In this document: positions 35,312 to 39,610 of the stretch, piece by piece
Numbering within the stretch: the first letter of the stretch is position 1
Layout of the letters: each line of letters opens with the position of its first letter
Assembly (NCBI GenBank): GCA_002713215.1
Contig: PAVO01000050.1
Coordinates: 1-42,962 of the forward strand
From: Crocinitomicaceae bacterium
Lineage (GTDB): Bacteria; Bacteroidota; Bacteroidia; Flavobacteriales_G; Salibacteraceae
Direction of reading: 5' to 3'
Length of the DNA stretch: 42,962 bases
Notes under the pieces: model-generated
The model's database searches: none
Seen by the model: only the letters and a program-made list of their open reading frames with translations
Told to the model about the DNA's origin: nothing
Made by a program: the position numbers and the translations under genes

Positions 35312-37819
35312 ATGATTAAAATTTTATTCACCAATTTAATTTGCATTTTATCAATTTCACTTCTAGCCAGCCCTAAAGGCGGTGATAAGCCCGGCCCGGC
35401 ATCTTCGGCTCACATTTTAGAAGAAATTGAAAAGCTCAATGTACTGGGATCGGTTCTCTACATTGCTGCCCACCCAGACGATGAAAACACAAGATTGATC
35501 TCCTGGCTGGCGAATGACAAAAAAGTAAGAACCGGGTATCTCTCACTTACCCGTGGTGGTGGTGGACAAAACCTGATTGGAAGTGAAAAAGGAGAACTCA
35601 TTGGGGCTCTTCGGACACAGGAATTATTAGAGGCTCGAAAAATAGATGGTGGTACGCAATTCTTCTCAAGAGCAGTGGATTTTGGTTATTCGAAGACTAC
35701 CGATGAAACGTTGGAAAAATGGAATGAGGATGAAGTACTTTGGGACATGGTATGGGTAATTCGAAAATTCAAGCCCGAAATTATTATTACACGATTCCCG
35801 GCAAATAAGTATGCAGGACATGGACATCATTCAGCATCTGCCGTGCTTACCAATAAAGCAGTTGAAATGGCAGCAAGCCCAAAGGTTTTTCCAGAGCAAT
35901 TAAAACACGTAACTGCCTGGCGTACCAAAAGGCTCTACTACAATACATCTTCCTGGTGGCGAAAGGATTTGGATAAAAAGTACTTAACCGATGACAACCT
36001 TATTCGTGTTGATGTTGGAACCTACAATGCAACCCTTGGAAAATGGAACAACCAAATTGCGATGGAAAGTCGATCACAACATAAAAGCCAGGGATTTGGC
36101 GCTTCAGTTAATCGGGGAGAACAATTCGAATACCTCGAGTATGTTAGTGGTGATAAAGCCAAACAAGACCTTTTCGACGGAATTGATTTATCGTGGAAAA
36201 GGCTGGCAAAAACAGAGCAAATTCAATATCAGCTGGACCAGATACTGGACAAGTTTGATGCCCGAAATCCTTCTGCCAGCGTTGCCGACCTGGTAGAATT
36301 ATACCGACTTATGGATAACTATCAGTACGTATCCTATTGGATGGAACGAAAGAAGGAAGACTTGAAAAATTTAATATTCGATGCATCAGGACTTTGGATG
36401 GAAGCTGTTTCAGAACAAGAGTATACCACCCCTGGAGGCTCCATACAGGTTAATACCTCAATTATCAATGCTGGAAATATTCCGGACATAGAAATCGATT
36501 CGGTAAGCTTTCCCGGAAAGGATACTGCAATTTTTGGCCTGCTGGAACAAAACAAATGGCAAAAAGTATCGGTAGGAATCACCATTCCCGAAAATGCCTC
36601 CATAACTCAACCCTATTGGTTGGTTGAAGATTACAATACAATGTTTCAAGTTGAAGATATACTTCTCAGAGGACTTCCCTTTAACCCTCCTCCCTACTCG
36701 GTAACCTACCATGTAAATATTGAAGGTTTGTCTTTTAAATACTCAACTCCTATTCAATACAAATGGAGGGACCGTGTAAGCGGTGAAAACATAAAAGCAC
36801 TTTCTATTCGACCAGAGCTCACTATTAACATTGACAACTCGGTTTACGTCTGCCCTTATGGCAACGAACAGGAAATATTTGTTACTGTCGTCAACCAAAA
36901 GGAAAACATGACCGGGGAACTTAAACTAAACCTTCCCAAAGGATGGGGTTTATCGCCGGCAAGTCATGTTGTTACCCTAAATACCAAAGGAAGTGCTTCT
37001 GTCTATACTTTCAAACTAAAACCTACTTCCAGTGCCCAATCAGGAGAATTTACTGCTGAAATAAAAAGTGGAAATAAAACGTACAACCGCTCAATTGAAA
37101 CCATTGAATACCCTCATATTCACACCCAAACGTTGTTCCCAAAAACAAGGGGAAAAGTGGTAACGGGTGATATTAAACTGCTTAGCAAGAAAATAGGGTA
37201 TATCTCCGGAACGGGAGATGAGGTCCCTGAAGCCATTGAGCAAATGGGAGGTCAGGTAGAATTCTTACTACCCGAAAACCTGCCATCTGTAGATCTGAAA
37301 CAGTATGATGTAATTGTTGCAGGAATTAGGGCATACAATACGCAAAAAGAACTTGCTAAATACCATCAATTTATGCTTGATTATGTAGACTCCGGTGGGC
37401 TCTATGTAATTCAATACAACACCTATCATGGTATGCTGGTAAAGGATATCGGCCCCTATCCAATTGAGTTTCCCAAAACCAGGAAAAACAATCGAATTAC
37501 CAATGAGTTTGCAACTACAAAATTCATCGAGGAAGATCACTTAATATTAAACAGCCCAAATAAGATTGAACTCTCCGATTTTGACAATTGGGTACAGGAA
37601 CGTGGCTTATATTTTCCTGAAAAATGGGATAAAAATTACGATGCTTTGCTTCGGTGGAGCGACCCGAACGAACAACCGCTTGACGGAGGAATAATTGTTT
37701 GTGACAAGGGCAAAGGACAATTTGTTTATACAGGAATATCCTTTTTCAGGCAATTGCCTGCCGGAGTTCCCGGAGCTTATAAATTGCTCGCCAATATTCT
37801 TTCTTATGGAAGAGAATAA
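35312..37819 (+). CDS. Exported PIG-L (LmbE-like) deacetylase with C-terminal amidotransferase-like domain
   Basis: 835 residues. A signal peptide covers about 1-20. The PIG-L domain (about 45-290) has the zinc motif A-H-P-D-D-E at 53-58 and H-G-H-H at 170-173, so it is likely an active N-acetylglucosamine-type deacetylase, acting outside the cytoplasm. A middle region (about 360-620) is made of beta strands and resembles NPCBM/Ig-like modules. The last 200 residues (from about 628: I-G-Y-I-S-G-T-G-D-E-V) resemble a ThuA/class I glutamine amidotransferase-like Rossmann domain without an evident catalytic Cys. The 3' end overlaps a short membrane peptide gene by 14 bases, which overlaps a symporter gene. 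A sugar-derivative substrate taken up by that symporter is an inference. Confidence 0.88.
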   Translation: MIKILFTNLICILSISLLASPKGGDKPGPASSAHILEEIEKLNVLGSVLYIAAHPDDENTRLISWLANDKKVRTGYLSLTRGGGGQNLIGSEKGELIGALRTQELLEARKIDGGTQFFSRAVDFGYSKTTDETLEKWNEDEVLWDMVWVIRKFKPEIIITRFPANKYAGHGHHSASAVLTNKAVEMAASPKVFPEQLKHVTAWRTKRLYYNTSSWWRKDLDKKYLTDDNLIRVDVGTYNATLGKWNNQIAMESRSQHKSQGFGASVNRGEQFEYLEYVSGDKAKQDLFDGIDLSWKRLAKTEQIQYQLDQILDKFDARNPSASVADLVELYRLMDNYQYVSYWMERKKEDLKNLIFDASGLWMEAVSEQEYTTPGGSIQVNTSIINAGNIPDIEIDSVSFPGKDTAIFGLLEQNKWQKVSVGITIPENASITQPYWLVEDYNTMFQVEDILLRGLPFNPPPYSVTYHVNIEGLSFKYSTPIQYKWRDRVSGENIKALSIRPELTINIDNSVYVCPYGNEQEIFVTVVNQKENMTGELKLNLPKGWGLSPASHVVTLNTKGSASVYTFKLKPTSSAQSGEFTAEIKSGNKTYNRSIETIEYPHIHTQTLFPKTRGKVVTGDIKLLSKKIGYISGTGDEVPEAIEQMGGQVEFLLPENLPSVDLKQYDVIVAGIRAYNTQKELAKYHQFMLDYVDSGGLYVIQYNTYHGMLVKDIGPYPIEFPKTRKNNRITNEFATTKFIEEDHLILNSPNKIELSDFDNWVQERGLYFPEKWDKNYDALLRWSDPNEQPLDGGIIVCDKGKGQFVYTGISFFRQLPAGVPGAYKLLANILSYGRE

Positions 37820-37925
37820 GAGCCAACCACTAGAAGATGAAAACAAGCTGCAATATGCCGCAGTCCTGATCGTTTTTTTGATTCTCGTTGCACTGTTTTA
37901 CGCTTTGACATCTTATTTTAAATGA
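37806..37925 (+). CDS. 39-residue single-pass membrane peptide
   Basis: A small ORF nested between two genes: the ATG at 37806 lies inside the last codons of the PIG-L gene (14-base overlap) and the stop overlaps the symporter start by four bases (ATGA). The peptide has an acidic polar N-terminus (M-E-E-N-K-S-Q-P), a strong hydrophobic helix at about 17-37 (A-A-V-L-I-V-F-L-I-L-V-A-L-F-Y-A-L) and one positive residue at the C-terminus, suggesting N-in or N-out insertion with a short tail. A longer in-frame ORF begins at 37695 but antisense-like residues upstream are unconvincing. Size and place suggest a small subunit or regulator of the transporter. I know no named family for it. Confidence 0.7.
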   Translation: MEENKSQPLEDENKLQYAAVLIVFLILVALFYALTSYFK

Positions 37926-39610
37926 GCAGTGTAGATTGGTTTGTTCTTTTAAGTTCTCTGGCTTTTATAGTGGGCTACGGTACATGGAAAACCAGACGTA
38001 ACCGGGATCTAAACAGCTACCTCAAAGGAGGTAATGGAATGGGATGGCTTACCATCGGGTTGTCTGTAATGGCGACGCAGGCAAGTGCCATCACTTTTAT
38101 TTCAACTCCCGGATTGGCCTATGAAAGTGGGATGGCTTTCGTTCAAAACTATTTTGGCCTACCCCTGGCACTTATAATTGTCTGTACCGTCTTTCTTCCC
38201 ATCTATTATAAGCTAAAGGTTTACACGGCTTATGAATACCTCGAGGGGCGATTCGACCTAAAAGTGAGGCTACTCACTGCCGGAATATTTTTACTTCAAC
38301 GGGGATTAGCCGCCGGAATAACCATTTATGCACCGGCCATCATTTTAAGCACCATGCTCGGATGGAACCTAAGTTTTACCATTCTTATGGTTGGAATACT
38401 GGTAATTATATATACCGTATCCGGTGGGACCAAGGCAGTTAGTTTAACTCAGAAATGGCAAATGTCCATGATTTTGATTGGGATGGGAATCGCCTTTTTT
38501 ATTCTTCTCAATCGAATGCCCGACGGAATAGGGTTATTTGAAAGCTTGCAAATTGCAGGAGCAAGTGGAAGAATGAATATTGTGGACTTTTCGTTTGACC
38601 TTGATAAGCGATACACCTTTTGGACCGGAATTACCGGGGGACTTTTCCTGGCACTCTCCTACTTTGGTACCGATCAAAGCCAGGTTCAACGATACCTGTC
38701 CGGGAAATCACTTAAAGAAAGTAGAATGGGATTAATATTTAATGCCATCTTAAAAATTCCCATGCAGTTTATGATCCTGCTAACCGGTGTTCTGGTGTTT
38801 GTATTCTATCAGTTTGAAGAGCATCCGGTACTTTTTAATCGGGTTGCTGTACAGGAAGTTCAGCAGAGTGAATTTGCAAATGAATTCAAAAAAATAGAAG
38901 ACCAGCACCAACAGTTTCATGCCGAAAAAAGGAAACTTGTTCAGGAGTATGTTCAGAATCCAAATAAATCACAGGGAGCTCTTTTGGAACTGGATGAAAA
39001 AGGGAAGAAGATTAGGGATGAAGCTCGAGCTGTAGTACTAAAAGCGAATCCCGATCTAAGTTCCAGGGATAGTGATTACGTATTCTTGACCTTTATCTTG
39101 AACTACTTACCCAAGGGTATTATTGGATTGCTCATAGCCGTGATCATTTCTGCAGCCATGTCAAGTACAGCAGGAGAAATCAACGCCCTGGCCAGTACCA
39201 CCATGATCGACTATTACCAACGATTAAGGAAAAACGATTTAAGTGATAAACAGAAAGTAAGTACGTCCAAGTGGCTTACCCTGGCATGGGGAATTTTAGC
39301 TATCACATTTGCCTTGTTTGCTCAATTGGTGGAAAATCTAATAGAAGCGGTCAACATTTTAGGTTCCGTATTTTATGGGACCATCCTGGGTATTTTTCTA
39401 GTTGCGTTCTTTTTTAAAAAGGTAAATTCTAGGTCGGTGTTCTTAGGAGCTTTAGCCGCCCAATCAGCCGTATTTGCCATGTTTTTTAGCAACCAAATTG
39501 AGATAAGCTATCTCCTGTACAACGTAATTGGATGTGTACTTGTAATTATTCTGTCCATGCTTATTCAGCTTGGACTAACGGGCACAGGGATTTTAAAAAG
39601 CCCTAAATAG
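37922..39610 (+). CDS. Sodium:solute symporter (SSS family)
   Basis: 562 residues with about 13 hydrophobic helices. Family motifs are the N-terminal G-W-L-T-I-G-L-S-V-M-A-T-Q-A-S-A-I-T-F-I-S region, the Y-T-V-S-G-G-T-K-A-V segment, and F-G-T-D-Q-S-Q-V-Q-R-Y-L, a strong signature. The A-A-M-S-S-T-A-G-E-I-N-A-L-A-S motif carries the sodium-site Ser residues. An insertion of about 75 hydrophilic, helical residues (about 305-380, charged and Gln-rich) interrupts the helices, longer than in classical members. Substrate cannot be read; coupling to the PIG-L deacetylase and the small membrane peptide hints at a sugar or sugar-acid derivative. Confidence 0.93.
   Translation: MSSVDWFVLLSSLAFIVGYGTWKTRRNRDLNSYLKGGNGMGWLTIGLSVMATQASAITFISTPGLAYESGMAFVQNYFGLPLALIIVCTVFLPIYYKLKVYTAYEYLEGRFDLKVRLLTAGIFLLQRGLAAGITIYAPAIILSTMLGWNLSFTILMVGILVIIYTVSGGTKAVSLTQKWQMSMILIGMGIAFFILLNRMPDGIGLFESLQIAGASGRMNIVDFSFDLDKRYTFWTGITGGLFLALSYFGTDQSQVQRYLSGKSLKESRMGLIFNAILKIPMQFMILLTGVLVFVFYQFEEHPVLFNRVAVQEVQQSEFANEFKKIEDQHQQFHAEKRKLVQEYVQNPNKSQGALLELDEKGKKIRDEARAVVLKANPDLSSRDSDYVFLTFILNYLPKGIIGLLIAVIISAAMSSTAGEINALASTTMIDYYQRLRKNDLSDKQKVSTSKWLTLAWGILAITFALFAQLVENLIEAVNILGSVFYGTILGIFLVAFFFKKVNSRSVFLGALAAQSAVFAMFFSNQIEISYLLYNVIGCVLVIILSMLIQLGLTGTGILKSPK

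Follow-up and report, generated by a model that had tools for sequence, protein, structure and literature searches.

A short reading frame between two larger genes

A very short open reading frame lies between two larger genes in the locus described here, and the question that it raises is whether it encodes a protein and, if so, with which neighbor that protein works. In the window, the whole stretch of 42,962 nucleotides from a Crocinitomicaceae bacterium that was analysed, this frame runs on the forward strand from an ATG at 37806 to a TGA stop ending at 37925 and encodes 39 residues (MEENKSQPLEDENKLQYAAVLIVFLILVALFYALTSYFK). The upstream gene, encoding an 835-aa PIG-L family deacetylase (35312..37819, + strand; Pfam PF02585, E 1.2e-14), overlaps it with its 3' end by 14 bases, and four bases (ATGA) are common to its stop and to the start of the downstream gene, which encodes a 562-aa SSS (SLC5-type) sodium:solute symporter (37922..39610, + strand; PF00474, E 8.8e-44). 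The N-terminus of the peptide is polar and is followed by a single strong hydrophobic segment at about residues 18-36 (37857..37913, + strand), a predicted transmembrane helix with an N-in/C-out orientation. Re-reading of the DNA thus reproduced the frame at 37806-37925, its length, both overlaps, the polar N-terminus and the one strong helix of the original prediction.

The symporter scores 240 bits against TIGR00813 (cut-off 184) and stays under the cut-off of each named SSS model that it touches, and it has no match among annotated plasmids at E 1e-60. Thirteen hydrophobic helices can be read from its sequence. Between TM8 and TM9, residues 299-386 (38816-39079) form a long charged stretch, presumably periplasmic, which lies outside the aligned stretches of the symporter profile with SiaT and NIS.

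Conservation of the peptide family

The 39-residue ORF is a real and widely conserved gene. Symporter orthologues were fetched without using the peptide and their upstream regions were then inspected, in three sets that overlap partly because some genomes are common to them. For the first set, 100 relatives were searched, 58 of them had a symporter match, and 59 loci were read including the window, with a few fragments and one 33% paralogue left unread; 52 of the 59 loci encode the peptide directly before the symporter and seven lack it there, two of the latter being in genomes that carry it elsewhere. The second set was drawn from genome contigs, in which 177 relatives of the symporter were found; the peptide lies beside the symporter in all of the 80 best-matching loci (80/80). 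It is Flavobacterium-heavy, includes Fulvivirga, Pontibacter and Reichenbachiella, and also holds records labelled Opitutales, Opitutaceae, Verrucomicrobia and Deltaproteobacteria. The third set (L253-L483), in which the regions were picked from longer lists and L309-L313 came from a targeted search, contains the peptide in 217 of 231 loci. One locus of this set is cut off upstream and 13 lack the peptide, among them two in genomes with the peptide elsewhere and one distant paralogue (29% identity).

Searches that began from the peptide gave a similar association. Its profile matches 151 of 395 genomes of the phylum at E<=0.1, some of the weak matches being due to chance, and an SSS gene lies directly downstream in 86 of the 90 peptide-first loci that were read (the 30 best and 60 chosen). 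The remaining four comprise a truncated symporter after the peptide, two genomes in which the symporter is encoded at another site, and one chance match.

The pattern of substitution points the same way. For 68 independent pairs compared over codons 13-36, the peptide frame has a dN/dS of 0.107, as against 1.02 when this DNA is translated in frame +1 and 1.97 in frame +2; a low value in the peptide frame, against values of at least 1 in the others, indicates that selection acts on the protein. Loss of the helix in relatives, which the original prediction had named as the outcome that would count against it, is not the pattern in the three sets (52/59, 80/80 and 217/231). A chance origin, which the original prediction thought unlikely given the overlap on both sides, is remote, since the peptide recurs in this position across the phylum.

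The family consensus is PPxFxxW-x3-Y-xxVL-xxL-xxxI-xxF-Y-xx-[TS]-xx-[FY]. In window numbering, the conserved positions are 13 (W), 17 (Y), 20 (V), 24 (L), 28 (I), 31 (F), 35 (T) and 38 (F/Y), which recur every three to four residues and so mark one face of a helix. Tyrosine is found at position 17 in 418 of 420 aligned rows. The window copy is divergent, with N13, F24 and V28 at conserved positions; its codon 37842-37844 encodes N13, where 408 of the 420 rows have tryptophan, making it an unusual member of the family. Lysine plus arginine averages 2.33 residues N-terminal to the helix versus 0.50 C-terminal to it (unweighted, 420 rows), and because of this bias the peptide is predicted to lie N-in/C-out.

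Covariation of the peptide with the symporter

The peptide and the symporter covary at particular residues, and PIG-L has no comparable signal. Couplings were calculated by mean-field DCA with average product correction from 420 distinct paired loci (Neff 257 at 80% identity). The top inter-protein pair joins peptide residue 34 to symporter residue 218 (z 19.2) and is outscored by only two intra-symporter pairs (separation 6 or more); it is followed by 35-220 (z 11.5), 34-220 (z 10.1) and 34-290 (z 9.4). Scores for these four pairs (3.10, 1.84, 1.62 and 1.50, respectively) exceed the maximum of 1.45 reached by 12 shuffles in which pairings were permuted inside sequence clusters, and 38-206 (z 8.4, score 1.33) is within the shuffle noise. 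Within residues 34-38, the periplasmic end of the predicted helix (37905..37919, + strand), positions 34 and 35 therefore stand beyond the shuffles and position 38 does not. A further pair, 21-316, has a z of 7.9 with the 420 pairs and 10.2 with the 277 loci that also include PIG-L, and falls outside the docking model given below. These 277 shared loci provide the control that carries the most weight: the maximum z between the peptide and the C-terminal part of PIG-L is 6.7, compared to 16.3 between the peptide and the symporter, again at 34-218.

The top pair follows a residue rule that recurs in several clusters: F34 pairs with L, T or A at 218, and I or V, mostly also L, at 34 pairs with M218. 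An aromatic residue at 34 occurs together with M218 in 3 of 420 rows. On a symporter tree made without these columns, positions 34 and 218 changed on the same branch 14 times versus 1.4 expected, a count that ignores branch length and uses a two-state coding chosen after the table was seen; under a naive coding, 34-218 comes third among 14,272 pairs, and p values are similar for other pairs as well. The ranking also differs between two disjoint subsets of the alignment. For the largest cluster (195 rows), 35-220 is first, 34-218 is 12th and 34-290 is about 15,900th of 18,084 pairs, and for the other clusters (225 rows), 34-218 is first, 34-290 second and 35-220 64th.

Proposed docking site

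SSS proteins have 13, 14 or 15 helices, and those with 13 have their N-terminus outside, according to a review of the family (PMC7918813). The 13-TM layout places symporter residues 206-220 (38537..38581, + strand), which contain the strongest covarying positions 218 and 220, in the periplasmic TM6-TM7 loop. In the alignment they match an NIS segment that carries glycosylation in the rat protein. TM8 (residues about 268-298, SGLT TM7; 38723..38815, + strand) holds residue 290 close to its periplasmic end. The C-terminal end of the peptide thus covaries with positions predicted to be periplasmic, in agreement with the topology suggested by charge.

Weaker pairs run along TM3 (residues about 72-98, SGLT TM2; 38135..38215, + strand): 35-72, 31-74, 27-78 and 21-85 are each within the shuffle range, and their near-constant sum is the mark of antiparallel helices. 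Overall, TM3 has 13 pairs with z>4 versus 5.6 expected. In a diagonal test with a null of 24 shuffles, TM3 in the antiparallel direction reaches 9.74 (null maximum 7.91) and TM8 in the parallel direction reaches 7.44 (null maximum 5.83), and these are the two helix contacts that we propose. Excesses are also seen for TM6 antiparallel (9.59 vs 7.83), which is the wrong direction for the inferred topology, for TM3 parallel (8.71 vs 7.43) and, to a smaller degree, for TM1 parallel and TM5 in both directions. Since these diagonal signals do not fit one geometry, we put forward as a hypothesis that the peptide docks near TM3, TM8 and the TM6-7 loop. Couplings within the symporter (71-220, 72-219, 78-221 and 218-290) are consistent with these positions forming one patch. 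TM13 was also considered as a contact helix, as the pairs 28-530 and 26-533 looked antiparallel, and was dropped when its diagonal fell below the null.

A probable subunit of the symporter

Conservation of the peptide together with its co-evolution with the adjacent symporter makes it a probable small subunit of the transporter. Specifically, we hold with good confidence that this single-helix protein of 39 residues serves as an auxiliary subunit of the SSS symporter whose translation directly follows its own. We favor this reading because the frame is conserved and associated with the symporter, survives apart from it, is found in loci where PIG-L was not detected nearby and covaries with symporter residues. 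From the same observations we infer physical binding, its exact site and a function in stability or activity. The original prediction, which suggested that the peptide may serve the symporter as a small regulator or as an accessory subunit, draws support from the conservation of the frame, from the gene association and from covariation with the symporter and not with PIG-L.

According to this model, the translational overlap would lead to the peptide and the symporter being made together. Judged by charge, the peptide would insert so that the basic N-terminus stays cytoplasmic and the C-terminus faces the periplasm. Its conserved face (13, 17, 20, 24, 28, 31, 35, 38) would pack against TM3 and TM8 of the 13-TM symporter, bringing residues 34-35 to the periplasmic TM6-TM7 loop near 218-220. 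Its function would most likely be structural, stabilizing the symporter or aiding its folding, by analogy with what has been proposed for MAP17 and SGLT2, and it may also tune symporter activity.

MAP17 (PDZK1IP1) is described in two reports as an auxiliary subunit of SGLT2 that has a structural role at the bundle domain, interacts with SGLT2 TM13 and is needed for robust SGLT2 surface expression (PMC10803289, PMC10203128). Both MAP17 and the peptide are single transmembrane helices tied to an SLC5/SSS transporter, in our case by gene association and hydropathy, and covariation would likewise put the peptide against helices of the bundle (SGLT TM2 and TM7). However, the contact helix of MAP17, TM13, is the 14th helix and is absent from the 13-TM window symporter. 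MAP17 is also an auxiliary subunit of human SGLT1; it has 114 aa and an orientation opposite to that of the peptide, and SGLT TM13 belongs to the less mobile module together with the bundle (SGLT TM1, 2, 6 and 7). A MAP17 chain was not listed up to E 10 when the peptide profile was compared with PDB chains, which is a weak test for a helix this short. We regard the peptide as a probable analogue of MAP17, not a homologue.

A bolder version of the subunit reading, which we consider unlikely, is that the peptide supplies the SGLT-like 14th helix (TM13) as a separate chain and that, lacking it, the symporters of this branch would be incomplete. The peptide would then share with TM13 both its in-to-out direction and the face of the bundle on which it lies.

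The subunit reading in general is limited by lineages in which the symporter and PIG-L are present and the peptide is missing (for example, G048, G050, G092 and G094); no convincing copy of the peptide was found elsewhere in these four genomes. No compensating extra helix was seen in the 19 peptide-less symporters examined, one of which is incomplete. Lineages that lack the peptide thus keep the symporter with no helix gained, which suggests that the subunit is dispensable or has been replaced there.

Alternative explanations

It is also possible, although we think it doubtful, that the peptide is a dynamic regulator that inhibits the symporter or directs or blocks its proteolysis, in the manner of MgtR and MgtU acting on MgtB. 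The covariation evidence is the same for this explanation as for a subunit, and small-helix regulators of transporters are well known: AcrZ (with AcrB), MgtR, MgtU and MgtS are listed in a published overview as membrane proteins of less than about 50 aa that bind transporters (PMC10710835). The peptide resembles them as a small membrane protein tied to a transporter, with binding in its case predicted, but their partners belong to families other than SSS, and to our knowledge none of these four is encoded as an overlapping frame directly before its target gene. Co-translation, in many loci from an overlapping or abutting frame, would suit a fixed stoichiometry better than independent regulation.

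A much less probable explanation is that the frame acts in cis, its translation merely coupling ribosomes from PIG-L to the symporter start and the peptide itself being inert. Overlap on both sides in the window would fit such a role, as would the ATGA overlap with the SSS start in 36/52, 20/80 and 135/217 peptide-bearing loci of the three sets, a 3-base gap being commoner than the 4-base overlap in the Flavobacterium-heavy second set. However, selection acts at the amino-acid level, the conserved helix face is patterned and the peptide covaries with symporter residues. In addition, four genomes have kept the peptide gene apart from the symporter gene. Two of them (G019 and G023) are drafts from one genus, with symporters at L057 and L032 that have no peptide beside them and with neither symporter nor PIG-L in the 6.5 and 8 kb around the peptide; in the other two the peptide and the symporter are on one contig, about 15 kb apart in G148 and about 108 kb apart in G367. 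That the peptide persists where the symporter gene is not adjacent speaks against a role in cis alone.

Equally improbable is that this genuine membrane protein partners PIG-L or another complex, with the symporter a mere operon neighbor. The peptide overlaps PIG-L in the window and comes after PIG-L in many loci. However, its covariation with PIG-L is at background while that with the symporter is above it for the same 277 loci, and family f69 provides 14 loci in which the peptide precedes an SSS gene of 37-43% identity and PIG-L was not detected in the approximately 3 kb fetched upstream. Finally, a chance open frame or annotation artefact, for which the frequency of short ORFs speaks (68 of at least 25 aa in 4.5 kb), can practically be dismissed as it is contradicted by conservation and dN/dS.

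Relation to described families

No credible Pfam or NCBIfam model was found for the peptide among 46 members scanned, single members touching unrelated models at E 0.001-0.005. Likewise, PHROGs gave no credible match, and PDB sequences gave weak matches only (best E 0.39). A two-helix small subunit, TIGR03647, pairs with the TIGR03648 large subunit in VC_2705-type sodium/solute symporters, and like the peptide it is a short bacterial membrane protein paired with an SSS-family transporter; its model, however, spans 77 positions compared to 39 residues in the peptide. Neither TIGR03647 nor DUF4212 matched any of the 46 peptides at E 0.01 (NCBIfam, Pfam), the window genome has no TIGR03647 match, and the window symporter scores 47.3 bits against TIGR03648, below the cut-off of 320.75. 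TIGR03647 is over its cut-off in 7 of 21 genomes searched, and the match in G011 lies 3 Mb from the symporter that accompanies the peptide.

No description of a small partner of such symporters was found among the open-licence PMC papers listed, and the words 'subunit' and 'accessory' do not appear in the main text of a 2021 review of prokaryotic SSS symporters (PMC7918813). As far as we know, SSS symporters of prokaryotes are generally regarded as single-chain proteins, TIGR03647-type partners aside, and we know of no transporter-bound single-helix subunit in this branch. If the peptide is indeed a conserved extra helix, members of the branch that are overexpressed without it may miss a part, and the pair would offer a bacterial, genetically simple counterpart of SGLT2-MAP17, in which 34-218 could be swapped as a test of the interface. 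More generally, the case shows that a genuine protein under selection, and one without a Pfam or NCBIfam model, can be encoded by a short overlapping frame within an operon.

Other arrangements of the locus

Natural fusions of the peptide with the symporter were not found among the loci examined (matches at E 0.01, frames >300 aa). At L077 (G123) the peptide is intact and the symporter similarity ends, by eye, after about 26 residues; the G123 genome has no symporter relative at E 1e-20. At L233 and L234, in two genomes of one genus, the relocated peptide gene directly follows one that encodes a presumably SPOR-like protein of about 350 residues. L044 has a further hydrophobic ORF in the gap between PIG-L and SSS, besides the peptide, and at L435 and L436 the peptide is replaced between PIG-L and SSS by another small ORF, in which two hydrophobic stretches are rich in glycine.
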